This document shows, piece after piece, positions 5,592 to 53,748 of a stretch of 64,000 bases of DNA (the stretch's first letter is position 1; each line of letters starts with the position of its first letter). The notes under the pieces are model-generated. The model was not told where the DNA came from and ran no database searches. It worked only from the letters and a program-made list of their open reading frames with translations. Origin of the DNA: Onchidella celtica (lineage: Eukaryota; Mollusca; Gastropoda; Systellommatophora; Onchidiidae). The position numbers and the translations under genes were made by a program. The stretch spans positions 4,668,507-4,732,506 of the forward strand of contig OZ007569.1 in NCBI GenBank assembly GCA_963931925.1, read 5' to 3'.

Positions 5592-5652
<61 letters not shown>

Positions 5653-5661
5653 GTCTATCTG

Positions 5662-5734
<73 letters not shown>

Positions 5735-5757
5735 ATATCTATTTATCTATTTGTCTG

Positions 5758-5836
<79 letters not shown>

Positions 5837-5893
5837 CTCTATCTATCTATCTATCTACCTATCTATCTATCTACCTGTCTGTCTGCCTGTCTG

Positions 5894-5958
<65 letters not shown>

Positions 5959-5993
5959 TTACCTATCTGTCTGTCTGTCAGTCTGCCTGTCTC

Positions 5994-6076
<83 letters not shown>

Positions 6077-6117
6077 GTGTGTGTATTATGTCTATCTATC
6101 TATCTATCTATCTATCC

Positions 6118-6193
<76 letters not shown>

Positions 6194-6290
6194 GTCTGTC
6201 TGTCTATCTATCTGTCTATCTATCTATCTATCTATCCCTCCGTTAGACCGCCTGTCTATCTGTCTGTCCTTTTTATTTATTCATCTCTTT
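5591..6290. repeat. Imperfect (ATCT)n array, about 700 bp
   Basis: The tetranucleotide ATCT is repeated with scattered variants (GTCT, ACCT, ATTT and a GTGTGT break near 6077). The repeat has no stop codon on the plus strand, giving an artefactual Tyr-Leu-Ser-Ile open frame. The many interruptions indicate an older array than the perfect TATG array at 38709-43948. Confidence 0.95.
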
Positions 6291-27075: not shown

Positions 27076-27860
27076 ACTGCTCATGTGCGTGCCAATCACC
27101 GGTGTATCGGTGCACAAGAATGCTAGGTTATTTTGTTTTTGGGAAGAAAGAAAGACGACTTTCTATTAGTAGATGTTGCTGTAGTTAGTCTTTATTCATC
27201 CCCCCCCCCCTCCATTATTTTCCTCCTGTGTCAGCAAACATGGGAAAATTCATGGCACACAAAAAGTTATGCTGTTCCTTTGAAGCGACTTTTTGTAATT
27301 AAGTTTTTGATGAGAGCATTTTTTTTCGAAGTATTTACATTTCTATTACATCTTCCATGGCGACACCTACAATACAAATAGAAAGATTTATATTTATAAA
27401 ACACGAGCGTGTTCACTGAGCGCAAAAGACGCGCAGAAAGACCTGAAAACACCTTTCATGGGAACAAGCTTTTATAAGAAGTGACTGTTGTTTTTCTACT
27501 GCAAATAGTTTGGTTCCTTTTGCATCTATACATTTACATTTATTTGCAAGCAAAACTATACAGCACAGGTTTACAACCCCCTGCCCCCCCCCCCTCTCCT
27601 CACCCTTTCTAGTAACATTTCACAAAGGTTCTTTACCATGTCACTTCCTGTATACCTGTTATGGAGTTATTGATTTGTAGTATGTTTGTGTAATGATACG
27701 TAAGATATGTGTACCATGTCATGTGCTGTTAAACGCTCTGTGATGGAGAATTTCCTTCGTGGGATAGTAATATAATTCTTGTCTTATCTCAACTGTAAAA
27801 GCCCCTCTCCTTTCATTTCTTTATTTATGTATTTATTTAGGTTTTTATGTATTCATATAT
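27076..27860. other. Non-coding spacer
   Basis: No gene is recognised; C-runs near 27200 and 27580 only. Confidence 0.45.
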
Positions 27861-27862
27861 GT

Positions 27863-27966
27863 ATTTATGTATGTATGTATGTATGTATGTATGTATGTAT
27901 GTATGTATGTATGTATGTATGTATGTATGTATGTATGTATGTATGTATGTATGTATGTATGTATGT
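27863..27966. repeat. (TATG)n array 1
   Basis: About 25 units of TATG, after a degenerate lead-in with TTTATG variants. It is the first array of the TATG island and directly precedes a 90-bp LINE 3' fragment. Confidence 0.95.
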
Positions 27967-28056
27967 GTTGTACAGCTGAAGATGGTTGAATATGTGATTA
28001 TGTAAATGGATGTATTCATTGCATGTAAAATCATATAGTCAATAAAGTTCTTGAAG
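27967..28056 (+). mobile_element. TATG-targeting LINE, 90-bp 3'-UTR fragment (S1)
   Basis: The segment is nearly identical to the last 90 bases of the copies ending at 38708 and 44529. It contains AATAAA 12-17 bases before the end, and then runs directly into TATG repeats. It starts abruptly out of TATG repeats, so it is an extremely 5'-truncated insertion of subfamily S1. Confidence 0.8.
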
Positions 28057-28117
28057 TATGTATGTATGTATGTATGTATGTATCTATGTATATATGTATG
28101 TATGTATGTATGTATGT
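28057..28117. repeat. (TATG)n array 2
   Basis: About 15 units with TATC and TATA variants, between the 90-bp S1 fragment and the first S2 copy. Confidence 0.9.
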
Positions 28118-28288
28118 GAAATAATTCTTTTGATCTTTAGTTCATTAGGTCACGTCCACAAGAGAGTAAAAAGTGGACTATGTAAACTTGGCCTCAGTAA
28201 AATTGAAGCAAAATTTATAGCAAAATACTGCAGTGTTAGCAGTGGCATAGGCTCTTTTAATGTATGGAAGCTGAGAGCAAGAAAGTAG
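28118..28288 (+). pseudogene. Endonuclease protein C-terminus (S2)
   Basis: Fifty-six codons encode the protein's extreme C-terminus. IFSSLGHVHKRVKSGLCKLG aligns with IVGSLGTVHNKSASGLKLLG of the 28751 copy, followed by CSVSSGIGSFNVWK against MSISAVIGSHRVWK. The frame is open from the upstream TATG array, which supplies in-frame ATG codons. The catalytic PD...E part lies upstream of the truncation and is absent. Confidence 0.78.
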
Positions 28289-28490
28289 GACAGAGGTAGT
28301 TTAGCATAAAGTGAAATAATATTGTATCAACTCTAATATTTTACCAGAGAAGAAGATTTGGAGAGCAAGAATGAAAAGGGACCATAGCATGTATTTCCGC
28401 TTCTGTACAATGTGAAGTTTTGTTTTTTCCAATAGGATATTGTACGGGTACATTTGACATGTAATTCATGGAAATAAACAAATTTGATCT
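28118..28490 (+). mobile_element. TATG-targeting LINE, subfamily S2, truncated copy
   Basis: A 373-bp 5'-truncated copy. It begins straight after TATG repeats and ends GATCT at 28490, followed by GTATG. It contains the last 56 codons of the endonuclease protein and a 3' UTR unlike that of subfamily S1, yet with AATAAA about 15 bases before its end. The same insertion habit in a divergent subfamily shows that preference for TATG is a property of the family. Confidence 0.82.
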
Positions 28491-28512
28491 GTATGTATGT
28501 ATGTATGTATGT
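28491..28512. repeat. (GTAT)n short array 3
   Basis: About five units between the first S2 copy and a 76-bp S2 3' fragment. Confidence 0.85.
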
Positions 28513-28686
28513 GAAGTATTGTTTTTCCAATAAGATATTGTACGGGTACATTTGACATGTATTTCATGGAAATAAACAAATTTGATCTGTATGTATGTAT
28601 GTATGTATGTGAAGTATTGTTTTTCCAATAAGATATTGTACGGGTACATTTGACATGTATTTCATGGAAATAAACAAATTTGATCT
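28513..28686 (+). repeat. Two tandem 98-bp units: S2 3' end plus GTAT repeats
   Basis: Segments 28513-28588 and 28611-28686 are almost identical 76-bp S2 3' ends (from GAAGTATTG to GATCT), separated by about 22 bp of GTAT repeat. They start at exactly the same base, 98 bp apart. Identical truncation points are unlikely for two independent insertions, so a 98-bp higher-order unit was probably duplicated in tandem after one insertion. Confidence 0.8.
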
Positions 28687-28750
28687 GTATGTTTGTATGT
28701 ATGTATGTATGTATGTATGTATGTATGTATGTATGTATGTATGTATGTAT
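28687..28750. repeat. (GTAT)n array 4
   Basis: About 16 units with one GTTT variant, leading directly into the next LINE copy. Confidence 0.92.
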
Positions 28751-29569
28751 GATTGTTACACCTTATCGATAAATGACGGCAATGGTTCTATAATTCATAC
28801 CAGTGATATAAATAAAGTGTCTAAATTTCTAAAAAGTCAAAGAATACAAGATGATATCAATTACTGGCATAATCTAGAGCAACAAGGACAAATTGTTAAC
28901 AAAGTACATGCAAACATTCACTCATCATCCAGTACTGTTTTTAAAAATGCAAATATCATTAAATTTGCTATGAAAGGGAGATTACAATTGTTAGAAACAA
29001 ACGCAAACATGAACAAATACTACCCACTGTCCTTTCAAAGATCATGTCCCTTGTGTAATCAGCCTTATGACACCAACTCACATATACTTAATAGTTGCCA
29101 GAGATTTAAAGGTTTCTACACAGAGAGACACGACAAAATTGTAGACTTTTTATTTGAAAATATCAACAAAAAACTTGCAAGTGATCAGTGCATTATCAGT
29201 ACCAACAAATGTGTCAATGTTGAAAACAACATCCCCAACAAACCTGATATATTGATTATTGATGAGAAAGAGAAAATTGTGTTTATAGTGGAAGTCTCTG
29301 TTCCCTTTGATAGGTTTATTGATATTTGTTTTAATGAAAAATTTCTGAAGTATTTACCACTACATAATCATTTCAATGATATGGGATACACAAGTAAAAT
29401 CATTGTCTTTATTGTGGGTTCACTGGGGACAGTGCACAATAAGTCAGCATCAGGTTTGAAGTTGTTGGGTTTCACTAACAGTGAAATAAACCAGTTTTGT
29501 AAATTCATGAGTATCAGTGCTGTTATTGGGTCACACAGGGTCTGGAAGAAAAGATATCATTTAATCTAA
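28751..29569 (+). pseudogene. REL-type endonuclease domain of LINE, copy A
   Basis: About 270 residues of the C-terminal part of a non-LTR retrotransposon protein. In order: a helical linker with INYWHNLEQQGQ, KGRLQLLETNANMNKYYP, a CCHC finger C-X2-C-X8-H-X4-C (CPLCNQPYDTNSHILNSC), RHDKIVDFL, and a PD...E catalytic site (NKPDILIIDEKEKIVFIVEV). It ends with IVGSLGTVHNKSASGLKLLG and a VWKKR end. This CCHC followed by PD-(D/E) is the hallmark of early-branching LINEs (R2, R4/Dong, NeSL, HERO group), many of which insert at specific sites. The reverse transcriptase is missing. The frame has no internal stop and is in frame with ATG codons from the repeat. Confidence 0.85.
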
Positions 29570-29892
29570 TTCATCTCTAACAATATTTTGTCATATACAG
29601 CAGCTTTCAGTGGTGCATTCACTCCCTTTTTTCTTCGTTTTTTATCAGTCAAAAGGCTTTTATCAATGCAATGCATGTTGGTTATTCCATACACTATATT
29701 ACTACTATGCATTCTCATTACAATGCATGTTGGTTACTCCATACACTATATTAGTATTATACAGTTTCATTGTATTACACTATTTAAGTTGTTGGTATGC
29801 TTGTAAGCTGATATATTATGTTGAATATGTGATTATGCAATTGGATTGTTCATTGCATGTGAAAAATCATATAGTCAATAAAATTCTCGAAG
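28751..29892 (+). mobile_element. TATG-targeting LINE, S1-like copy A (1.14 kb)
   Basis: A 5'-truncated copy, open directly from the TATG array. It holds about 820 bp of coding sequence and about 320 bp of 3' UTR that ends GTCAATAAAATTCTCGAAG, followed by TATG repeats. A 3'-UTR segment with two ATGCATGTTGGTTA-type motifs (29672 and 29722) is duplicated internally. It is clearly more diverged from copies B and C than those are from each other. Confidence 0.88.
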
Positions 29893-29948
29893 TATGAATG
29901 TATGTATGTATGTATGTATGTATGTATGTATGTATGTATGTATGTATG
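29893..29948. repeat. (TATG)n array 5
   Basis: About 14 units with one TGAATG variant, downstream of copy A. It is the left flank of the LTR retrotransposon; GTATG at 29944-29948 is its probable target duplication. Confidence 0.92.
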
Positions 29949-31329
29949 TGTGATGTTTCCACTTTCTCTCACTAACTTTCTTCTGACACCAGCCGTGATG
30001 GGCACGGCACAAACACACTAAATAATCGACTATCTCTCTTCTATAAGTTATAACAAACGATATCTGTATTGCTTACATATATACAATAATTATTAATTCA
30101 TTCAATAATAATAGGAACATAGGTCATACAATTTCATGTGAATTTCGATGGAATGAAGTGATGCAAATCAGTACATGCTAATTAAATGGCTTCGTAATAT
30201 TCAATCTCTAGCACATTTTATAAAACACATGGGAACATTCAGCATAAGGAAACCTCTCCTTTAGGGGTGTATGGCGCTATCTGGGCACTGGTTCTTCCTC
30301 TCTACCCTGGCTTGACTGCGCAGTTAGATCAACAGGTATCGGCAGGTACCAATAGGTCGGGAAGCCAAGAAGCCACGATGTCGTTAATCAAAGTACAAGA
30401 AGTTGAGAAGCCAAGAAGGTGTTGTTCTTCCTCCTCTGTAGAAAAACAATCGCAAAGTCCTAATCTACTGCTGGAAGGCATGACTTCCATACTTACTCCA
30501 TGACGGATATTCATCATTAACACTTTTAACCGCTGACACTGTTATAAGTCAGGCTGCAGCTCCCATACTCCATAGGCTCCCATATAGGGAATAGAATAAA
30601 CGATCAATACAGTTTTAATGATATTTACACGTTCCCCACGAAGAATAACGCTCTCTCTAACGGACCCCATCCTATAAGGTTTCGTAACATATATATAACG
30701 GCGTTTCCGTGACTCTCTCAGAGGCAGTAGTTATACCAAAGTAAACCCACTAGATTTAGGTTCTACAATCATGAACATTAAGTAAAATACACATACATCG
30801 TACAATTAACTTACCACTCAGCAACAGCTCAAATGCCGACAAGATACCAAAGATACCACGCTCTGACAAAGGATGTTTGCGGGTTCCCTGACCTTCCCCA
30901 CTCACAAGACTAGTACAAAGTTACAGTTGCAGTTGTGGTCTCCTCTTCGGCACGAAGCTGGTGAGTGCTCTCAGCGGTCTGAAGTTGGAAGGAGCGTTCG
31001 GGGATTTATACCCAGTCAGGTAGCGTCCCAAGACGCCCACCGAGTGTGCATTAGTTATCCTAATAGCCACCCCCGTCGGCTCCACGTCAAATACTATTGA
31101 AACAGCTCTACCCCCCAAGCAATTCCCAGGTGATCTGATCGACAAGTACGGCGGTCAAGTAAACACCACCCTTTTCGGGTGTCAAAGCGCCACAGTCGCA
31201 TCCCATACTTTCCCCCTCTGGCCCACAACGACTCTGTCTCCCCGCCGTTAACTATCTTCCCACGCCAGTCATAGGCACAACATTATTATAACTACTAGTC
31301 ACACCTTGCCAATCCATCACCCTGTTACA
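29949..31329 (-). repeat. 3' LTR of Gmr1-like retrotransposon (1,381 bp)
   Basis: This LTR is a direct repeat of 36104-37484; the only difference that I find is A at 31192 against T at 37347. In the element's sense it starts TGTAACAGGG and ends GGAAACATCACA. It holds no coding sequence of note; mirrored short open frames in both LTRs are not conserved proteins. It contains a 12-base copy of the primer-binding motif (29980-29991). Confidence 0.97.
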
Positions 31330-31343
31330 ATCGCCCCCACTTA
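31330..31343 (-). other. Polypurine tract
   Basis: In the element's sense the bases just before the 3' LTR read AAGTGGGGGCGAT, a purine-rich tract that would prime plus-strand DNA synthesis. It directly abuts the LTR start TGTAACAGGG. Confidence 0.85.
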
Positions 31344-31380
31344 AGTCGATTTTCCCTGGCAAAATCGGCTAATAAAATTA

Positions 31381-34300
31381 TTAATCTACTGGTAATCTAG
31401 ATAGAGTGTCGGCCCATAGAGCGTCTCGCCCCCTGATGTTGCTGACTCGAAAGTTATATGGTTGCAGCGCCAGGTTCCATCTAGTTACCCTCGCGTTCTT
31501 CTGGTCTTTAGTTCGCATCCAAGTTAGAGGTCGGTGGTCCGTCTCTAACACGAAGTTTCTCCCATACAGATACGCCTGCAACTTACTAACGGCGAAAACT
31601 ATGGCCAGGCATTCCTTTTCAATTGTTGAGTAGTTCTTCTCCGCGGGTTTCAACTTTCTGCTAACATATACAACTGGATACTTCGTACCCTCGTCTTCTT
31701 GAAGTAGGCAGCCACTCACTCCAAGGTTAGATGCGTCTGTCTGGAGAATCAGTTCCTTGTTCCAGTCTGGCATCCGTAGGATCGGCTCGGAACTCAAACA
31801 ATTTTTTAGGGCATTGAACGCGTTCTCCTGCGCGTGTCCCCACGCGAACTTTGTGCCCTGGGACTTCTTTGTGAGGTCTGACAACGGCGCCGAGATTGCA
31901 CTGTAATTTGGTACAAACTTCCGATAGTACCCCGTTAGCCCCAGGAAACTCCTCACTTGTGTCTTGGTCGTCGGTCGGTCACAGTCGACAATGGCTCGCA
32001 CCTTACTCTCCTGCGGTCTTACAGTCCCCTGTCCCAGCTTATGGCCTAAGTACTCGACTTCTGTCATCCCTATTAGCGTCTTGGTAGGTCTAGCTTTTAA
32101 ATTTGCCCGTCTCAGTCGCTCGAAGACATTCCGACAACGTTCCAAGTGGTCAGGCCAATTTGCACTGTGTATAAGACAGTCGTCTACAAATGCATCTACC
32201 CCTTCGCCAGCATCTTTTAATACTTTCCTCATGAGGCTGTTAAATGTGGCGGGGGATCCCTTCAACCCGAACGGCATGACCCTGTAATGGTATAGCCCAA
32301 ACGGTGTGGCGAACGCCGTCAGGCGTTTATCTTCCTCGGCCATCGGAACTTGATAAAAGCCCTTTGTCAAGTCCAGCTTGGTGAAATATTTTGCCTCCGC
32401 TAGATTGGAAATAATGGCTTCTACCTCAGGCATCGGTTCGGCGTCATCGGCAGTCACAACATTTAGCCGCCTGTAGTCGTTGCAGAAACGATGTTGACCA
32501 TCGGGCTTCTTAACTAATACAATTGGACTCTTGTACGGGGACTCGGACGGTTCGATGATTCTGGCCGCAAGCATCTTGCCTACCTCAGCATTGACAGCTT
32601 CTCTAGTTGAGTACGGTAGTTGGTAGGGTCTTACCTTCACAGGTTTTTGATCTAGCAATGGGATTTTGTGCTTGATCAGGTCAGTGAGCCCCGGTACATC
32701 GGTAAATATATCTTTGTATTCTTCCATGAGCTCTTGCATCTGTTCTCTCTGATCCTGATCTAGCGTGTCCCCTAACTGTACATCCCTGTAGGTTTCGGTC
32801 TGTTCTAGCTTAGGCATGACTGTCTCCAGAGGCATCGAAGTCGCTTCCTCTCCTTCATCGGTCTCGTCAATTATAGCTGCAGCTATTGCCTCTGTGTTTT
32901 CCTGTTCGTCTTCCCTCTCAATATACTTCTTCAGCATATTCGCGTGATACAGTCGTCTCTTCCCCTTGACGTTCACCATGTAGTTCACTGACCCTCTCTG
33001 CTCTTCTACTTTGTAAGGCCCTTTCCAAGTCATCTGTAGTTTCGATCCGTCACTTGGGAGAAGTATGAGGACGGAATCGCCCACTTGGAATTTCCTCTGT
33101 TTGGCCCCCCTATCGTAGTATTTCTTCTGCCTGTGTTTTTCGACGCTGCTGTTCTCGGCTACGACTTTCATGGCATCCTCCAATCGTTCCCTCATATCTA
33201 CCACGTATTCGTACGATGACCTCGTTTCTGACTCCGCTTCCCCAGTCCACAGATTCTTCAGTATTGCAAGTGGTCCTCTCACAGGGTGACCGAACACTAG
33301 TTCAAACGGCGAAAAACCTGTACTGGCCTGTGGGGTTTCGCGATACGCGAACAGCAGTGGACACAACATTCTGTCCCAGTCCTTGGGTCTGTCATGAGCT
33401 ACTCGGCGAAGCATATTCTTCAGCACTCCGTTAAATCTTTCACACAGACCATTGGCCATCGCGTGGTAGGGCGAGCAGAATATCTGTTTCGTTTTGAGAA
33501 GTGCACTGACCTCTCTCAACAGCTCACCGGTAAACTGTGATCCCCTATCTGAAACTATTTCCTTTGGTATGCCTAACCGAGAAAATATTTCCATTAACGC
33601 TTCACTGACCTGCTCAGCTGATATCCCCCTTAAGGCTACGGCATCCGGGAAACGCGTGGCATAATCTACTAGCGTCAAAATATAACGCGATCTCCCATGT
33701 TCCGTACGCGGAAGTGGACCAACCAAATCTATGGCGACGCGCGAAAAGGGCGTGTCGATCAGGGGTGTCGGCACTAGGGGTACCTTTGTCACCCTACCTT
33801 TATTGGATGTCCTTTGACACGCGTCACACGATCGACAGAAACGACCTACGTCCGCACCTATCCCAGGCCAAAAGAACGACTGCATTATTCTGTCCTGTGT
33901 GCGCGAAATTCCTAAGTGTCCCCCGAACACTCCTTCGTGAGCTATCTTCATCAGCTCACTTCGGTACTGCTTAGGTACCAACAACTGCTCCACATCAGCA
34001 CGTCCAGCCCCGGCCTTCTTTACCCGATAGTAAATTCCCTTACTCTCCTTTATGTGAGTACCTACCTCAGCCGATTGCTCCAACGTGGCTCTCTCCCTTA
34101 AAACTCTCAAAGTTTCGTCCTCTCTCTGGGCCCGGGCTATCTCACCTGGTGTGAGTTCCCCTATCTTGGCCCCTACCCTTACCTCCTCCGTTGAGTTGCC
34201 CTTGGCCTCCTCATTATCTGTGATCTGACTCACTTTCGCACTCGCATTCTCACACTCATGCTCTTCCTTGTCAATCTCCACCTTGCGAGATCGCGTGAGT

Positions 34301-35817
34301 ACCACACTTATCTTCTCAAGAGACGCCCCCTTTATGTTTCCTATAATCAAATCGGCCACTGGGTCTTCCACTACTAGCGCTTTGAGAAGCCCAGTATAAA
34401 ATGGGGTTTCTACCCACATTTCCGCGACAGGAGCAGACCTTCTCGTCCCGTCCATCAGGACATAACTCCTGTTCTTCCCAGTTAAGCTGTTAGGAGGCAG
34501 TTTGTCCCTTTTTATAATCGCACACGTGCATCCCGTGTCACGAAGGATAGTAATCTCTTTATCCCCTATCCTCCCCTTCTCCAAAAATGGAGCGGATAAA
34601 TCATTCTCCGGAACATCGTCTTCGGGCTCATGTTCTGTCGAACCTTCTAACTCAATACTCTTACCTTCCGTCTCCCAAGAAATGAAGGTCTGTGGCCCAA
34701 CACTCTGCTCAGCCCCTGGTTGAGTATTCGCCCTGCCCGATGACTCCCACTGACTGTCATCGGCTTCCTCATCGCTGGTTAGTACGACTGCGGTCGTCTC
34801 TTTCTGTCTCTTCCTACAGAATCTCGCAATATGGAGAAGTGACCCACACACAAAACAACCACGCCCACTCTCACGCTGGGACTTACCTCGGTTGTCCTCG
34901 ACAGTGGCAGCAGCACCCTTCTTCGTCCTGCCCTGGTCACACTGCCTACTCAGGTGATTGGGAGAGCCACAGTTGAAGCATACCGGTTTACTCACTCCTA
35001 AACCCTTACTTCTGCTCTCCTCAACCCTCTTACCTGACTTCTGCTGTTGCTCCAGCCCTCGCTTCGACTGATGAGCCTCACTATACAAGTCCGCCATCTC
35101 AACTAACTCATGCACGGACTTGGGGTCCCTCTCTTTCAAATATATGGAAAGATTACAGTCGACAATCTTCAACATCTGCTCCCTGACTAACAGATCCGTA
35201 ATCCCTTCCATAGTTCTCTCTGCCTCTGAGAGGTCTACCCACCTCTCAAAATATCTCTGCAATCTCACGGACAGCTGCGTATAAGTTTCGTCCTTATCTA
35301 GACGACTCTCCCTAAACTTACGCCTATAACCCTCTGCCGTGAGGTGATACTTCTTGAACAACACCTTCTTTACCTTCTCGTAATCCCTACTGTCTTCCTC
35401 GCTGAGACCGGAATAAACATCTAACGCCCTGCCAGTTAACAATGCCCCTAACATGTCTGCCCAGGTGTCTTCTTCCCAATCATTTGCCTGCGCGAGCCTT
35501 TCAAATCTTTTCAAATACGAGTCGAGATCCTCGCGCGAGTCATCAAAAATGGCAATTTTAGGTACCTTCGGGGCAGCAGATTTTCCATTCCCTTTACCAT
35601 TGTGACACCCGTTTTTGGCTAGTTCCCGTTCGCATTCCATTCTCTCCCTTTCAAATTGTCTTTCCTTCTCCTTTTCTTCTCGTTCGCGCTCCTTTTCTTC
35701 TCGTTCGATAGCCCTTTGTTCTCGGTTTTGGGCTTTCTCTTCGTCCCACCTAATTTTGAATTCCTCATCACTAATGCCTTCTTGTCTGGCAAGCTTCAGT
35801 GCGCCCAGATAGTCCAT
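31381..35817 (-). CDS. gag-pol: Gag-Pol polyprotein, Gmr1-type order (gag-PR-IN-RT-RH)
   Basis: One frame of 1,478 codons from the first ATG at 35817; the open frame begins slightly earlier with non-ATG codons. Order: charged coiled coil (residues 35-70), a capsid region whose part at about 165-250 resembles the SCAN fold (FRESRLDKDETYTQLSVRLQ then LLVREQMLKIV), CCHC knuckles at 280-293 and 321-334, and protease LRDTGCT at about 427. The integrase has a zinc site (His627, His634, Cys664, Cys667) and catalytic Asp697, Asp757 and Glu793 with 35 residues between the last two, then a GPY/F-type WKGPYKV at 931. The reverse transcriptase has LDLTKGFYQV and FVDDCLI (VDD, 1211-1213), and RNase H has LQTDASN and ETDHRPL. 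All catalytic residues that I can check are present. Fusion into one frame leaves no frameshift signal between gag and pol. Confidence 0.96.
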   Translation of the reverse strand: MDYLGALKLARQEGISDEEFKIRWDEEKAQNREQRAIEREEKEREREEKEKERQFERERMECERELAKNGCHNGKGNGKSAAPKVPKIAIFDDSREDLDSYLKRFERLAQANDWEEDTWADMLGALLTGRALDVYSGLSEEDSRDYEKVKKVLFKKYHLTAEGYRRKFRESRLDKDETYTQLSVRLQRYFERWVDLSEAERTMEGITDLLVREQMLKIVDCNLSIYLKERDPKSVHELVEMADLYSEAHQSKRGLEQQQKSGKRVEESRSKGLGVSKPVCFNCGSPNHLSRQCDQGRTKKGAAATVEDNRGKSQRESGRGCFVCGSLLHIARFCRKRQKETTAVVLTSDEEADDSQWESSGRANTQPGAEQSVGPQTFISWETEGKSIELEGSTEHEPEDDVPENDLSAPFLEKGRIGDKEITILRDTGCTCAIIKRDKLPPNSLTGKNRSYVLMDGTRRSAPVAEMWVETPFYTGLLKALVVEDPVADLIIGNIKGASLEKISVVLTRSRKVEIDKEEHECENASAKVSQITDNEEAKGNSTEEVRVGAKIGELTPGEIARAQREDETLRVLRERATLEQSAEVGTHIKESKGIYYRVKKAGAGRADVEQLLVPKQYRSELMKIAHEGVFGGHLGISRTQDRIMQSFFWPGIGADVGRFCRSCDACQRTSNKGRVTKVPLVPTPLIDTPFSRVAIDLVGPLPRTEHGRSRYILTLVDYATRFPDAVALRGISAEQVSEALMEIFSRLGIPKEIVSDRGSQFTGELLREVSALLKTKQIFCSPYHAMANGLCERFNGVLKNMLRRVAHDRPKDWDRMLCPLLFAYRETPQASTGFSPFELVFGHPVRGPLAILKNLWTGEAESETRSSYEYVVDMRERLEDAMKVVAENSSVEKHRQKKYYDRGAKQRKFQVGDSVLILLPSDGSKLQMTWKGPYKVEEQRGSVNYMVNVKGKRRLYHANMLKKYIEREDEQENTEAIAAAIIDETDEGEEATSMPLETVMPKLEQTETYRDVQLGDTLDQDQREQMQELMEEYKDIFTDVPGLTDLIKHKIPLLDQKPVKVRPYQLPYSTREAVNAEVGKMLAARIIEPSESPYKSPIVLVKKPDGQHRFCNDYRRLNVVTADDAEPMPEVEAIISNLAEAKYFTKLDLTKGFYQVPMAEEDKRLTAFATPFGLYHYRVMPFGLKGSPATFNSLMRKVLKDAGEGVDAFVDDCLIHSANWPDHLERCRNVFERLRRANLKARPTKTLIGMTEVEYLGHKLGQGTVRPQESKVRAIVDCDRPTTKTQVRSFLGLTGYYRKFVPNYSAISAPLSDLTKKSQGTKFAWGHAQENAFNALKNCLSSEPILRMPDWNKELILQTDASNLGVSGCLLQEDEGTKYPVVYVSRKLKPAEKNYSTIEKECLAIVFAVSKLQAYLYGRNFVLETDHRPLTWMRTKDQKNARVTRWNLALQPYNFRVSNIRGRDALWADTLSRLPVD

Positions 35818-36084
35818 CAGCAATTGACCTGTAAACAAAGCTAACAATAAAGCGTGGATCGTAACTGTGAAGTTAACAACAATATTCCTGCAATAGCAAA
35901 CAACAATTTTCTCTGTGACAAAAGATAAAATTGAACAGTCAATGCACAGGTAAAATCAGAGCATGTCGCAGGCACTAAATGTCAATCTCTCTCACTCGCC
36001 TCAGGGCAGATGACCTGTCCACACAATCACACAATAGCCCCTTGACACGACCCAGATCAAAATTAAATGTTATTTACTAGCAGG

Positions 36085-36102
36085 ATCCCACTTCTGACAC
36101 CA
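36085..36102 (-). other. Primer-binding site for tRNA-Leu
   Basis: The plus strand reads ATCCCACTTCTGACACCA, the same as the 3' end of a leucine tRNA including CCA; the element's RNA therefore has its complement, TGGTGTCAGAAGTGGGAT. One base separates it from the 5' LTR. Leucine tRNA is a known primer for several Ty3/gypsy groups. Confidence 0.9.
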
Positions 36103-36103
36103 T

Positions 36104-37484
36104 TGTGATGTTTCCACTTTCTCTCACTAACTTTCTTCTGACACCAGCCGTGATGGGCACGGCACAAACACACTAAATAATCGACTATCTCTCTTCTATA
36201 AGTTATAACAAACGATATCTGTATTGCTTACATATATACAATAATTATTAATTCATTCAATAATAATAGGAACATAGGTCATACAATTTCATGTGAATTT
36301 CGATGGAATGAAGTGATGCAAATCAGTACATGCTAATTAAATGGCTTCGTAATATTCAATCTCTAGCACATTTTATAAAACACATGGGAACATTCAGCAT
36401 AAGGAAACCTCTCCTTTAGGGGTGTATGGCGCTATCTGGGCACTGGTTCTTCCTCTCTACCCTGGCTTGACTGCGCAGTTAGATCAACAGGTATCGGCAG
36501 GTACCAATAGGTCGGGAAGCCAAGAAGCCACGATGTCGTTAATCAAAGTACAAGAAGTTGAGAAGCCAAGAAGGTGTTGTTCTTCCTCCTCTGTAGAAAA
36601 ACAATCGCAAAGTCCTAATCTACTGCTGGAAGGCATGACTTCCATACTTACTCCATGACGGATATTCATCATTAACACTTTTAACCGCTGACACTGTTAT
36701 AAGTCAGGCTGCAGCTCCCATACTCCATAGGCTCCCATATAGGGAATAGAATAAACGATCAATACAGTTTTAATGATATTTACACGTTCCCCACGAAGAA
36801 TAACGCTCTCTCTAACGGACCCCATCCTATAAGGTTTCGTAACATATATATAACGGCGTTTCCGTGACTCTCTCAGAGGCAGTAGTTATACCAAAGTAAA
36901 CCCACTAGATTTAGGTTCTACAATCATGAACATTAAGTAAAATACACATACATCGTACAATTAACTTACCACTCAGCAACAGCTCAAATGCCGACAAGAT
37001 ACCAAAGATACCACGCTCTGACAAAGGATGTTTGCGGGTTCCCTGACCTTCCCCACTCACAAGACTAGTACAAAGTTACAGTTGCAGTTGTGGTCTCCTC
37101 TTCGGCACGAAGCTGGTGAGTGCTCTCAGCGGTCTGAAGTTGGAAGGAGCGTTCGGGGATTTATACCCAGTCAGGTAGCGTCCCAAGACGCCCACCGAGT
37201 GTGCATTAGTTATCCTAATAGCCACCCCCGTCGGCTCCACGTCAAATACTATTGAAACAGCTCTACCCCCCAAGCAATTCCCAGGTGATCTGATCGACAA
37301 GTACGGCGGTCAAGTAAACACCACCCTTTTCGGGTGTCAAAGCGCCTCAGTCGCATCCCATACTTTCCCCCTCTGGCCCACAACGACTCTGTCTCCCCGC
37401 CGTTAACTATCTTCCCACGCCAGTCATAGGCACAACATTATTATAACTACTAGTCACACCTTGCCAATCCATCACCCTGTTACA
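36104..37484 (-). repeat. 5' LTR of Gmr1-like retrotransposon (1,381 bp)
   Basis: This is the transcription-start LTR for the minus-strand element and is nearly identical to 29949-31329. Its outer end (CCTGTTACA on the plus strand) meets TATG repeats. A TATATATAA-like box occurs inside (near 36845-36852), but I cannot assign the transcription start. Confidence 0.97.
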
Positions 37485-37516
37485 GTATGTATGTATGTAT
37501 GTATGTATGTATGTAT
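37485..37516. repeat. (GTAT)n array 6
   Basis: About eight units between the LTR retrotransposon and LINE copy B. Before the LTR insertion it was presumably continuous with the array at 29893-29948. Confidence 0.92.
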
Positions 37517-38557
37517 GTTCGAAAGACAGCGCGCAACGCGCTTCATTTACACATGTCAAAGCGAAAAGTTAAAGAGGTACAAGATAGGACGCAACATCAT
37601 TTTGGTGGCTTCGAGTTGACAGAGAAAAATATACTGAAAAAGGAAAGCAAAGTTAACTGGGGGGCTTCCGACTTTGTCGAAATGAATAGATTGTGTACAA
37701 AATTGAAATCTTCTTTAAATTTTGATGCAGAGAATGATCTTTTCACTTTGTCTATGTACGATAGCAACAATACTTTAATGTCCACCACCAATGTACACAC
37801 GCTATCAAAATATTTCAAACAACAAAGAATGAAAGAAGATATTGATTATTGGCGTAACTTGGAACAACAGGGTCAAATTTTTAACAGTGTCATGAAATGC
37901 ATGCATTCATCATCCAGTGCTGTTCTGAAAAACTCAAGTGTGAATGACAATATCATAAAATTTACAATGAAGGGGAGATTACAACTTCTTGAAACAAATG
38001 TTAACATGAATAAATATTACCCCGAGGCATTCCCTCGATCATGTTCCCTTTGCAACCATCCATATGACACAAACTCACATATTCTCAATGGATGTCAACA
38101 ATTTAAAGGAATGTACTCAGAAAGGCATGACAGAATTGTAAATTATTTGTATGAACACATCTCCAATAAATTAGCCAGTGATATTTGTGTAGTGACAACC
38201 AACAAATGTGTTCAGGTGGACGAAAACATCCCCAACAAGCCTGACATACTCATATTAGATGAAAAGAACAAAGATGCTTTTATTGTAGAAATTGCTGTTC
38301 CATTTGACAAATTCATCGATTTATGTTTTCATGAAAAGTTTTTGAAATATCTATCACTGCATAATAATATGAATGACAAGGGCTATCACTGTAGAATCAT
38401 TGTTATTATCGTGGGAGCATTGGGGACTGTTCATAACAAAGCCGCATCAGGGTTAAAAATGCTAGGTTTCAGCAATAGGCAGTCAACTAGCATGTGCAAG
38501 TTTATCAGCATTAGCGCAATTATAGGTTCGCAAAGAGTATGGAAAAAGAAGGTATAA
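37517..38557 (+). pseudogene. REL-type endonuclease domain of LINE, copy B
   Basis: About 346 codons, open throughout and in frame with ATG codons of the upstream repeat. The N-terminal 100 residues are a basic and charged linker that would lie between the missing reverse transcriptase and the nuclease. Then follow YWRNLEQQGQ, KGRLQLLETNVNMNKYYP, a CCHC finger (CSLCNHPYDTNSHILNGC), ERHDRIVNYLY, and the PD...E site (NKPDILILDEKNKDAFIVEI) with IVGALGTVHNKAASGLKMLG after it. The end is altered: one extra A in a run near 38545 changes the natural WKRRYNLI end to WKKKV and a stop. The nuclease core itself is undamaged. Confidence 0.87.
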
Positions 38558-38707
38558 TTTAATCTGATTGAAATAACGTACAAAATGTAATGTCTATTGT
38601 ACGGAATATATTGGTGTGTTGTACAGCTGAAGATGGTTGAATATGTGATTATGTAAATGGATGTATTCATTGCATGTAAAAATCATATAGTCAATAAAGT
38701 TCTTGAA

Positions 38708-38708
<1 letters not shown>
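37517..38708 (+). mobile_element. TATG-targeting LINE, S1 copy B (1.19 kb)
   Basis: This is the longest coding remnant of the family in the window. It starts straight from GTAT repeats and ends GTCAATAAAGTTCTTGAAA at 38708, where the 5.2-kb perfect TATG array begins. The 3' UTR is about 150 bp and has AATAAA 12-17 bases from the end, with TATG repeats in place of a poly-A tail. Copy C at 43949 differs by about a dozen changes over the shared 580 bp. Confidence 0.9.
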
Positions 38709-38738
<30 letters not shown>

Positions 38739-41700
38739 TGTATGTATGTATGTATGTATGTATGTATGTATGTATGTATGTATGTATGTATGTATGTATG
38801 TATGTATGTATGTATGTATGTATGTATGTATGTATGTATGTATGTATGTATGTATGTATGTATGTATGTATGTATGTATGTATGTATGTATGTATGTATG
38901 TATGTATGTATGTATGTATGTATGTATGTATGTATGTATGTATGTATGTATGTATGTATGTATGTATGTATGTATGTATGTATGTATGTATGTATGTATG
39001 TATGTATGTATGTATGTATGTATGTATGTATGTATGTATGTATGTATGTATGTATGTATGTATGTATGTATGTATGTATGTATGTATGTATGTATGTATG
39101 TATGTATGTATGTATGTATGTATGTATGTATGTATGTATGTATGTATGTATGTATGTATGTATGTATGTATGTATGTATGTATGTATGTATGTATGTATG
39201 TATGTATGTATGTATGTATGTATGTATGTATGTATGTATGTATGTATGTATGTATGTATGTATGTATGTATGTATGTATGTATGTATGTATGTATGTATG
39301 TATGTATGTATGTATGTATGTATGTATGTATGTATGTATGTATGTATGTATGTATGTATGTATGTATGTATGTATGTATGTATGTATGTATGTATGTATG
39401 TATGTATGTATGTATGTATGTATGTATGTATGTATGTATGTATGTATGTATGTATGTATGTATGTATGTATGTATGTATGTATGTATGTATGTATGTATG
39501 TATGTATGTATGTATGTATGTATGTATGTATGTATGTATGTATGTATGTATGTATGTATGTATGTATGTATGTATGTATGTATGTATGTATGTATGTATG
39601 TATGTATGTATGTATGTATGTATGTATGTATGTATGTATGTATGTATGTATGTATGTATGTATGTATGTATGTATGTATGTATGTATGTATGTATGTATG
39701 TATGTATGTATGTATGTATGTATGTATGTATGTATGTATGTATGTATGTATGTATGTATGTATGTATGTATGTATGTATGTATGTATGTATGTATGTATG
39801 TATGTATGTATGTATGTATGTATGTATGTATGTATGTATGTATGTATGTATGTATGTATGTATGTATGTATGTATGTATGTATGTATGTATGTATGTATG
39901 TATGTATGTATGTATGTATGTATGTATGTATGTATGTATGTATGTATGTATGTATGTATGTATGTATGTATGTATGTATGTATGTATGTATGTATGTATG
40001 TATGTATGTATGTATGTATGTATGTATGTATGTATGTATGTATGTATGTATGTATGTATGTATGTATGTATGTATGTATGTATGTATGTATGTATGTATG
40101 TATGTATGTATGTATGTATGTATGTATGTATGTATGTATGTATGTATGTATGTATGTATGTATGTATGTATGTATGTATGTATGTATGTATGTATGTATG
40201 TATGTATGTATGTATGTATGTATGTATGTATGTATGTATGTATGTATGTATGTATGTATGTATGTATGTATGTATGTATGTATGTATGTATGTATGTATG
40301 TATGTATGTATGTATGTATGTATGTATGTATGTATGTATGTATGTATGTATGTATGTATGTATGTATGTATGTATGTATGTATGTATGTATGTATGTATG
40401 TATGTATGTATGTATGTATGTATGTATGTATGTATGTATGTATGTATGTATGTATGTATGTATGTATGTATGTATGTATGTATGTATGTATGTATGTATG
40501 TATGTATGTATGTATGTATGTATGTATGTATGTATGTATGTATGTATGTATGTATGTATGTATGTATGTATGTATGTATGTATGTATGTATGTATGTATG
40601 TATGTATGTATGTATGTATGTATGTATGTATGTATGTATGTATGTATGTATGTATGTATGTATGTATGTATGTATGTATGTATGTATGTATGTATGTATG
40701 TATGTATGTATGTATGTATGTATGTATGTATGTATGTATGTATGTATGTATGTATGTATGTATGTATGTATGTATGTATGTATGTATGTATGTATGTATG
40801 TATGTATGTATGTATGTATGTATGTATGTATGTATGTATGTATGTATGTATGTATGTATGTATGTATGTATGTATGTATGTATGTATGTATGTATGTATG
40901 TATGTATGTATGTATGTATGTATGTATGTATGTATGTATGTATGTATGTATGTATGTATGTATGTATGTATGTATGTATGTATGTATGTATGTATGTATG
41001 TATGTATGTATGTATGTATGTATGTATGTATGTATGTATGTATGTATGTATGTATGTATGTATGTATGTATGTATGTATGTATGTATGTATGTATGTATG
41101 TATGTATGTATGTATGTATGTATGTATGTATGTATGTATGTATGTATGTATGTATGTATGTATGTATGTATGTATGTATGTATGTATGTATGTATGTATG
41201 TATGTATGTATGTATGTATGTATGTATGTATGTATGTATGTATGTATGTATGTATGTATGTATGTATGTATGTATGTATGTATGTATGTATGTATGTATG
41301 TATGTATGTATGTATGTATGTATGTATGTATGTATGTATGTATGTATGTATGTATGTATGTATGTATGTATGTATGTATGTATGTATGTATGTATGTATG
41401 TATGTATGTATGTATGTATGTATGTATGTATGTATGTATGTATGTATGTATGTATGTATGTATGTATGTATGTATGTATGTATGTATGTATGTATGTATG
41501 TATGTATGTATGTATGTATGTATGTATGTATGTATGTATGTATGTATGTATGTATGTATGTATGTATGTATGTATGTATGTATGTATGTATGTATGTATG
41601 TATGTATGTATGTATGTATGTATGTATGTATGTATGTATGTATGTATGTATGTATGTATGTATGTATGTATGTATGTATGTATGTATGTATGTATGTATG

Positions 41701-43948
41701 TATGTATGTATGTATGTATGTATGTATGTATGTATGTATGTATGTATGTATGTATGTATGTATGTATGTATGTATGTATGTATGTATGTATGTATGTATG
41801 TATGTATGTATGTATGTATGTATGTATGTATGTATGTATGTATGTATGTATGTATGTATGTATGTATGTATGTATGTATGTATGTATGTATGTATGTATG
41901 TATGTATGTATGTATGTATGTATGTATGTATGTATGTATGTATGTATGTATGTATGTATGTATGTATGTATGTATGTATGTATGTATGTATGTATGTATG
42001 TATGTATGTATGTATGTATGTATGTATGTATGTATGTATGTATGTATGTATGTATGTATGTATGTATGTATGTATGTATGTATGTATGTATGTATGTATG
42101 TATGTATGTATGTATGTATGTATGTATGTATGTATGTATGTATGTATGTATGTATGTATGTATGTATGTATGTATGTATGTATGTATGTATGTATGTATG
42201 TATGTATGTATGTATGTATGTATGTATGTATGTATGTATGTATGTATGTATGTATGTATGTATGTATGTATGTATGTATGTATGTATGTATGTATGTATG
42301 TATGTATGTATGTATGTATGTATGTATGTATGTATGTATGTATGTATGTATGTATGTATGTATGTATGTATGTATGTATGTATGTATGTATGTATGTATG
42401 TATGTATGTATGTATGTATGTATGTATGTATGTATGTATGTATGTATGTATGTATGTATGTATGTATGTATGTATGTATGTATGTATGTATGTATGTATG
42501 TATGTATGTATGTATGTATGTATGTATGTATGTATGTATGTATGTATGTATGTATGTATGTATGTATGTATGTATGTATGTATGTATGTATGTATGTATG
42601 TATGTATGTATGTATGTATGTATGTATGTATGTATGTATGTATGTATGTATGTATGTATGTATGTATGTATGTATGTATGTATGTATGTATGTATGTATG
42701 TATGTATGTATGTATGTATGTATGTATGTATGTATGTATGTATGTATGTATGTATGTATGTATGTATGTATGTATGTATGTATGTATGTATGTATGTATG
42801 TATGTATGTATGTATGTATGTATGTATGTATGTATGTATGTATGTATGTATGTATGTATGTATGTATGTATGTATGTATGTATGTATGTATGTATGTATG
42901 TATGTATGTATGTATGTATGTATGTATGTATGTATGTATGTATGTATGTATGTATGTATGTATGTATGTATGTATGTATGTATGTATGTATGTATGTATG
43001 TATGTATGTATGTATGTATGTATGTATGTATGTATGTATGTATGTATGTATGTATGTATGTATGTATGTATGTATGTATGTATGTATGTATGTATGTATG
43101 TATGTATGTATGTATGTATGTATGTATGTATGTATGTATGTATGTATGTATGTATGTATGTATGTATGTATGTATGTATGTATGTATGTATGTATGTATG
43201 TATGTATGTATGTATGTATGTATGTATGTATGTATGTATGTATGTATGTATGTATGTATGTATGTATGTATGTATGTATGTATGTATGTATGTATGTATG
43301 TATGTATGTATGTATGTATGTATGTATGTATGTATGTATGTATGTATGTATGTATGTATGTATGTATGTATGTATGTATGTATGTATGTATGTATGTATG
43401 TATGTATGTATGTATGTATGTATGTATGTATGTATGTATGTATGTATGTATGTATGTATGTATGTATGTATGTATGTATGTATGTATGTATGTATGTATG
43501 TATGTATGTATGTATGTATGTATGTATGTATGTATGTATGTATGTATGTATGTATGTATGTATGTATGTATGTATGTATGTATGTATGTATGTATGTATG
43601 TATGTATGTATGTATGTATGTATGTATGTATGTATGTATGTATGTATGTATGTATGTATGTATGTATGTATGTATGTATGTATGTATGTATGTATGTATG
43701 TATGTATGTATGTATGTATGTATGTATGTATGTATGTATGTATGTATGTATGTATGTATGTATGTATGTATGTATGTATGTATGTATGTATGTATGTATG
43801 TATGTATGTATGTATGTATGTATGTATGTATGTATGTATGTATGTATGTATGTATGTATGTATGTATGTATGTATGTATGTATGTATGTATGTATGTATG
43901 TATGTATGTATGTATGTATGTATGTATGTATGTATGTATGTATGTATG
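38709..43948. repeat. Perfect (TATG)n array, 5,240 bp, 1,310 units
   Basis: Every base that I read keeps the TATG phase from 38709 to 43948 without a visible substitution or indel, and 5,240 is an exact multiple of four. The repeat has no stop codon in any of the six frames (Met-Tyr-Val-Cys on the plus strand, Ile-His-Thr-Tyr on the minus), so enormous open frames cross it and are not genes. It separates LINE copies B and C. Other tetranucleotide arrays in the window carry frequent variants, so this one must be very young, actively homogenised, or an assembly product. Confidence 0.97.
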
Positions 43949-44389
43949 CATGACAGAATTGTAAATTATTTGTATGAACACATCTCCAATAAATTAGCCA
44001 GTGATAAATGTGTAGTGACAACCAACAAATGTGTTCAGGTGGACGAAAACAACCCCAACAAGCCTGACATACTCGTATTAGATGAAAAGAACAAAGATGC
44101 TTTTATTGTAGAAATTGCTGTTCCATTTGGCAAATTCATCGATTTATGTTTTCGTGAAAAGTTTTTGAAATATCTATCATTGCATAATAATATGAATGAC
44201 AAGGGCTATCACTGTAGAATCATTGTTATTATCGTGGGAGCATTGGGGACTGTTCATAACAAAGCCGCATCAGGGTTAAAAATGCTAGGTTTCAGCAGTA
44301 GGCAGTCAACTAGCATGTGCAAGTTTATCAGCATTAGCGCAATTATAGGTTCGCAAAGAGTATGGAAAAGAAGGTATAATTTAATCTGA
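43949..44389 (+). pseudogene. REL-type endonuclease domain of LINE, copy C
   Basis: 147 codons from HDRIVNYLYEH to the natural end VWKRRYNLI. It keeps the PD...E catalytic stretch (NKPDILVLDEKNKDAFIVEI) and the IVGALGTVHNKAASGLKMLG motif but lacks the CCHC finger because of truncation. The frame is open into the TATG array, which gives in-frame ATG codons upstream. The conserved Asp after VPF is Gly here (VPFGKF). Confidence 0.85.
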
Positions 44390-44529
44390 TTGAAATAACG
44401 CACAAAATGTAATGTCTATTGTACGGAATATATTGGTGTGTTGTACAGCTGAAGATGGTTGAATATGTGATATTGTAAATGGATGTATTCATTGCATGTA
44501 AAATCATATAGTCAATAAAGTTCTTGAAG
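43949..44529 (+). mobile_element. TATG-targeting LINE, S1 copy C (581 bp)
   Basis: A 5'-truncated copy that begins CATGACAGAATTG directly after the perfect array, with ATG microhomology at the junction. It ends CTTGAAG at 44529, followed by TATG repeats. It is about 98% identical to the corresponding part of copy B. Confidence 0.9.
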
Positions 44530-44640
44530 TATGTATGTATGTATGTATGTATTTATGTATTTATGTATTCTTGTATGTATTTATTTATTTATTGATTTAT
44601 TTATGTGTGTATTTATGTATGTATTTATGTATTTTAATTT
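44530..44640. repeat. Degenerate (TATG/TTTA)n tail array
   Basis: TATG units decay into TTTATG and TTTATT variants. It is the right edge of the TATG island. Confidence 0.88.
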
Positions 44641-52999: not shown

Positions 53000-53000
<1 letters not shown>

Positions 53001-53091
<91 letters not shown>

Positions 53092-53110
53092 CCTGTCTGT
53101 CTGTTTTCTT

Positions 53111-53197
<87 letters not shown>

Positions 53198-53210
53198 GTC
53201 TGTCTGTCTT

Positions 53211-53297
<87 letters not shown>

Positions 53298-53306
53298 GTC
53301 TTTCTG

Positions 53307-53367
<61 letters not shown>

Positions 53368-53386
53368 ATATCTATCTGTCTATCTA

Positions 53387-53418
<32 letters not shown>

Positions 53419-53422
53419 TCTA

Positions 53423-53457
<35 letters not shown>

Positions 53458-53498
53458 GTCTATCTATCTGTCTATCTACCTGTCTGTCTGTCTGTCTT

Positions 53499-53567
<69 letters not shown>

Positions 53568-53595
53568 TATATCTATCTATCTATCTATCTATCTA

Positions 53596-53635
<40 letters not shown>

Positions 53636-53707
53636 TCTGTCTGTCTATCTATCTGTCTGTCTGTCTGTCTTTCTGTCTATCTATCTATCTATCTGTCTAT
53701 CTATCTA

Positions 53708-53748
<41 letters not shown>
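53001..53748. repeat. Imperfect (ATCT)n array, about 750 bp
   Basis: ATCT repeats with frequent GTCT and TTCT variant blocks and one frame break near 53566. The Tyr-Leu-Ser-Ile open frame across it is an artefact. Confidence 0.95.

Follow-up and report, generated by a model that had tools for sequence, protein, structure and literature searches.

R2-group non-LTR retrotransposons (LINEs) very probably integrate into (TATG)n microsatellites of the gastropod Onchidella celtica by target-primed reverse transcription. The window, a 64,000-nucleotide stretch of contig OZ007569.1 (assembly GCA_963931925.1, positions 4,668,507 to 4,732,506 of the forward strand), holds a long TATG microsatellite locus in which several LINE pieces are embedded (Table 1). 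A first-pass annotation of the letters alone had read these pieces as a LINE family specific for TATG microsatellites, and this reading is supported by the window and by the searched genome (1.14 Gb, 43 contigs).

LINE pieces within a TATG microsatellite

The TATG-bound LINE pieces in the window are real. All five lie on the plus strand with TATG on their flanks, and the first-pass annotation had located them correctly to a base or two. It had also described variable 5' truncations, and the pieces indeed begin at different points of their elements. A1, A3 and A4 are nearly the same in sequence (97.8-98.9% DNA identity in their overlaps) and have three different start points, and A2 shares 72% DNA and 66% protein identity with A3. 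The similarity of B1 to A3 and A2 is limited to the protein C-terminus; its 3' UTR is its own and is also found at 39 other scored places in the genome. The two subfamilies named earlier do share a target, but the window contains three groups (A, A2 and B). Since these three sequence groups have different 5' truncations, the window pieces are not one duplicated insertion.

Table 1. Features of the TATG microsatellite locus, in positions of the window
Feature	Position	Strand	Remarks
Microsatellite locus, whole	27822-44634		outer edges degenerate TATT/TATG on both sides
Left edge of locus	27822-27965	+	degenerate TATT/TATG, then 25 perfect TATG units (27866-27965)
A1, family A LINE, last 90 bp, 3' UTR only	27966-28056	+	97.8-98.9% to A3/A4
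B1, family B LINE, ORF end and 3' UTR	28118-28490	+	protein 38% to A3, 45% to A2 C-terminus
98-bp tandem units, B 3' end and TATG	28492-28708	+	B ends 28509-28588 and 28607-28686
A2, LINE 3' part: CCHC finger, nuclease, 3' UTR	28752-29892	+	
LTR retrotransposon within TATG repeat, separate from the LINEs	29949-37484	-	LTR pair
A3, family A LINE 3' part: finger, restriction-like nuclease, 3' UTR	37518-38708	+	open 346-aa frame
TATG array	38709-43948	+	1310 perfect units
A4, family A LINE, truncated in nuclease region, with 3' UTR	43949-44529	+	97.8% to A3
Right edge of locus	44530-44634	+	5 TATG units, then degenerate TATT/TATG

To the five pieces listed earlier we add two further B ends, which lie in a 98-bp tandem unit. 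Over their last 78 bases these extra ends carry the majority sequence of the genome, from which B1 differs. A changed TCTG unit is common to B1 and both extra ends; we therefore count B once, which gives at least five insertions in the window. The 3' ends were said to join the repeat in a single register, and they do, but the CTG that had been noted before TATG in B is itself an altered unit of the repeat. All five pieces stop short of the reverse transcriptase and are in this sense 3' remnants.

The other long tetranucleotide arrays of the window (e.g. TATC at 5592-6236 and TCTA at 53000-53748) serve as a negative control from within: they gave no matches when the five pieces were compared with them by BLAST.

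Two further features of the locus may bear on its recent history. The 1310-unit TATG array runs without any interruption, as could result from very recent expansion, from homogenisation or from an assembly effect. The LTR retrotransposon, whose 1381-bp LTRs differ by one mismatch and which has GTATG flanks on both sides, is very recent; it later split the TATG repeat between A2 and A3. Its minus-strand ORF (31384-35955) encodes members of the reverse transcriptase, integrase and RNase H families. The integrase precedes the reverse transcriptase, an order known from Gmr1-type elements.

Junctions with the repeat across the genome

For the genome-wide comparison, the best 40 of 369 family A candidates and the best 40 of 394 family B candidates, the window among them, were scored. 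In 39 of the best 40 A copies all 151 bases are identical, and in the fortieth 150 are, a near-identity that points to a young group. A search for the exact 21-base A end gave 148 occurrences in the genome and none of its reversed control; exact B ends number 188. The copies inspected were best-scoring or exactly matching, and are thus mostly young.

The earlier reading would be in difficulty if copies elsewhere lay mostly outside TATG repeats. Instead, TATGTATG is directly attached to 122 of the 148 exact A ends. When 110 of these ends were inspected singly, 95 had TATGTATG at +0 and 11 had TATG at +0 followed by other sequence; three more had TATGTATG within 20 bases, and one (L133, adjoining another A copy) had none. 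The join with TATG is therefore at the same base in 106 of the 110 ends, and 109 are at a TATG-type repeat. The opposite orientation, CATACATA, was found in none of the 110 A flanks. The last base of the element is A in 96 of these ends and G in 14. Family B behaves alike: at the 39 fetched loci its ends read AAATTTGA followed directly by TATG, with small variations, and among the 37 ends matched to a pattern by script (window included) TATG stood at offset 0 in 33 and at offset 4 in 4, the ends outside these 37 being judged by eye. These LINEs join one repeat, in one register and one orientation, throughout the genome.

A chance association with TATG is rejected by the background. Outside 27800-44640, TATGTATG starts at 2 of the 94,320 positions of the window, both strands counted, and at none of 16,000 positions taken as 20 stretches of 400 bp elsewhere. 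At the window rate, 0.002 of the 110 flanks would be expected to start with TATGTATG and 0.4 with TATG.

The association also extends to other families. The 3' ends of A2 and C met TATG at +0 in 7/7 cases each, and those of D within 14 bases in 4/4; a fifth end, E, did so in only 2/4 matches. All these ends come from loci that had been retrieved on account of A or B, and so do not make up an unbiased sample.

On the 5' side, of 20 A copies fetched, 9 exceed the fetched stretch and 11 are truncated, and 10 of these 11 are preceded by TATGTATG; the lone exception, L057, is preceded by a TCTG/TCTC-rich stretch. Seven A copies were picked for a short 3' TATG: four of them exceed the 420 bases fetched and L168 is undecided, while L173 (with L083) and L172 (with L124) lie within short TATG patches that adjoin other tetranucleotide arrays. 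By eye, 29 of 39 B copies have TATG at their 5' end or at most about 30 bases from it, L017 being scored among such copies because its element is read as interrupted. In 5 of the 29 (L011, L016, L027, L029 and L041) this TATG is a single unit, behind another LINE end in four cases. Eight B copies (L013, L014, L019, L021, L022, L023, L039 and L045) have no 5' TATG, and two (L032 and L037) are ambiguous. The flank is the same in L021 and L039, a sign that a later insertion into a LINE is seen there and not a true 5' end.

The 5' break-points overlap the repeat by more bases than random draws do. Only copies flanked by 8 perfect bases of TATG repeat enter this comparison; the overlap is 2.75 bases in family A against 0.40 at random (n=8) and 1.0 against 0.35 in family B (n=10), and 0 of 20,000 random draws were as high. 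Four long copies (L021, L026, L037 and L046) open with a common AAGATGGCGGA start right after TATG. An Rfam scan of these four loci for a 5' ribozyme gave nothing at the gathering score; its best lines, mir-297, did not reach the threshold and fell at least in part within the TATG repeat.

Kinship of the encoded protein to R2

A CCHC finger and a PD...E nuclease of an early-branching LINE type had been proposed for the encoded protein, and both profile and fold identify the pair as R2-type. The finger has the spacing CX2CX8HX4C and is followed by a C-terminal nuclease of PD-(D/E)XK type. The open 346-aa frame of A3 alone gave weak matches, all of them R2 proteins (3/3, E 0.05-0.09), and a Pfam zf-RVT match stayed below the cut-off. 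A profile of five rows, from three window pieces and two relatives, matched the zebra-finch R2 (2.5e-15 and 3.9e-15) and a turtle R2 (2.9e-10) over a span that covers the finger and the nuclease. Its weaker matches were to silkworm R2 (0.07-0.12) and to a viral protease (0.22), the latter being taken as chance. Consistent with this, when a structure model built from 33 sequences (pLDDT 86.7, pTM 0.60) was compared with PDB folds, all seven matches at E<=0.001 were R2 proteins (E from 1.9e-13 to 1.5e-6, TM of 0.49-0.53 by query), and the next fold matches after R2 were viral cap-snatching nucleases.

Searches for relatives found 2 with P0001 alone and 85 with the five-row alignment, and 32 of the 85 contain RVT_1. 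Viral contigs contributed 90 pattern stretches and no relatives, and one weak match in a plasmid record was taken as chance. A search for a copy with the reverse transcriptase had been proposed. The window pieces are too short to provide one, but a long family D relative from the same genome, P0087 (locus L027), does: its open 1006-aa frame contains RVT_1 (2.1e-25), has R2 as its best solved match (6.8e-31) and places the reverse transcriptase upstream of the nuclease in a single ORF. The elements have no LTRs, a fixed 3' end and variable 5' truncation, all features of R2-group non-LTR elements. Together, the profile, the fold and the relatives with a reverse transcriptase indicate that the window pieces are 3' remnants of R2-group non-LTR retrotransposons.

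These elements resemble R2 in the reverse transcriptase, the CCHC finger and the C-terminal restriction-like nuclease, and profile, sequence and fold all give R2 proteins as their best solved relatives. They differ in target, which is 28S rDNA for R2 and a TATG repeat here, and protein identity in the fold matches is about 16-22%. A further difference may lie in the N-terminal zinc finger: in the single N-terminal frame at hand (L046; 363 aa, one copy, start not established), neither a Pfam zinc finger nor a CCHH/CCHC pattern was found.

Target choice and its spread among lineages

The nuclease presumably sets the target, and insertion would then take place by target-primed reverse transcription. 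In such a process, the protein would nick the CATA strand at the boundary between two TATG units; as the last base of the family A element is A or G, the nick of family A can be placed only to within a base. The freed DNA end would serve as the primer from which the end of the element RNA is copied, and the cDNA, often incomplete, would be joined at its 5' end with help from short stretches that match the repeat. Several families could become stacked head to tail, as in the window, when an array is entered again and again. Recognition of TATG by the nuclease itself goes a step beyond the evidence, and we infer it.

Targeting of TATG has exceptions to account for: the 5' TATG is absent from 8 of 39 B copies and, among the 11 truncated A copies, from one; of the 110 A ends inspected, 11 have a single perfect TATG and one has none; and E shows TATG in half of its four matches. 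A different reading, which we consider improbable, makes TATG a tail: the element RNA would end in UAUG repeats, each insertion would lay down TATG, and later copies would enter the tails of earlier ones. TATG on the 3' side of nearly every A end would fit such a tail, as would the eight B copies and L057 with TATG solely 3', and some LINEs do end in short repeats, according to the accessible part of one source (PMC3747384). However, a tail could not have placed TATGTATG in front of 10 of the 11 truncated A copies, and on its outer left side the window locus opens with TATG repeat that no LINE precedes. L045 shows one TATG unit only, followed by unique sequence, and L172 and L173 are flanked by TATG on either side within short patches of this repeat. 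We thus disfavour TATG as a mere 3' tail, chiefly on the 5' TATGTATG and the two patches, although not for every copy.

It is very improbable that the LINEs have no insertion preference, and instead either insert all over the genome, with survival confined to harmless repeats, or multiply as arrays expand. Tandem duplication does occur, as in the 98-bp B unit, and microsatellites are presumably tolerant places. Yet the two groups sampled over 18 large contigs have many truncation points and different outer flanks, and these, with the different groups, rule out one duplicated insertion, a prospect that the first-pass annotation had itself raised against its reading. Moreover, those A copies that are nearly identical, and so recent, lie in TATG, a single register and a single orientation are unexpected from selection, and the TATC and TCTA arrays of the window are without any pieces. 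Insertion directed to TATG therefore remains the reading that we prefer.

Dong, of the R4 clade, has a TAA repeat as its target. It shares with the present elements this type of nuclease and insertion in microsatellites, as do DongAg and DongBg, two LINEs with restriction-like nucleases that are described as inserting in microsatellites in the accessible part of the source (PMC3636483); the comparison is by description only. HERO and Togen elements, likewise compared by description, also have a restriction-like nuclease and in some cases a microsatellite target: in what is accessible of the source, some HERO families of a leech are microsatellite-specific and Togen of fish is (TG)n-specific (PMC4640811). 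In contrast, several other HERO families are reported to have no specific site, again from partial access to the source (PMC3636483). Because microsatellite-specific LINEs with such a nuclease are in print, the present elements add a new target and new families to a behaviour that is already known. The novelty claimed earlier thus holds for the TATG unit, which we did not meet as a LINE target in the open papers searched, but not for microsatellite targeting itself; an earlier case in Kojima and Fujiwara 2004 or in Repbase Reports is possible.

The target is not confined to one lineage. In a tree of 55 rows, in which the relatives are unnamed and named reference elements are absent, A and A2 fall in a supported set of 23 rows, 20 of them unnamed relatives, and B, C and D fall outside it. 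Relatives from environmental sequence separate the A/A2 branch from the B/C/D branches, and a single clade of the six rows of this genome is rejected (p-AU 9e-94), the A/A2 grouping having been seen on a quick tree before this test. A/A2 and B/C/D are thus not one clade, yet repeat, register and orientation are the same in both. TATG targeting could go back to the ancestor of a large, unnamed clade of LINEs with restriction-like nucleases, although we lean slightly against it. If the target has been kept since the split of A/A2 from B/C/D, TATG repeats are a long-lived niche for competing LINE lineages; alternatively, it was acquired more than once.

A tetranucleotide in fixed register is hereby added to the list of LINE targets, and the stacked arrays illustrate how a microsatellite may turn into a nursery of mobile elements. 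Each of families A and B offers more than 100 exact ends, and one group is young enough for the direct study of insertion. Diverged families with one target in one genome also provide a route to the protein parts that set target choice, and, as with R2, a LINE homing to a plentiful simple repeat could be of interest to builders of gene-insertion tools.

Two minor observations concern the 3' ends. The B 3' UTR contains a tandem repeat of about 88 bp whose copy number is very variable (L009, L014, L015, L023, L041 and others). The LINE-like E end (GGAAATAAAGAATT...), found in L011, L017 and L041, adjoins either TATG or TATC; the target of some kin may thus be looser.
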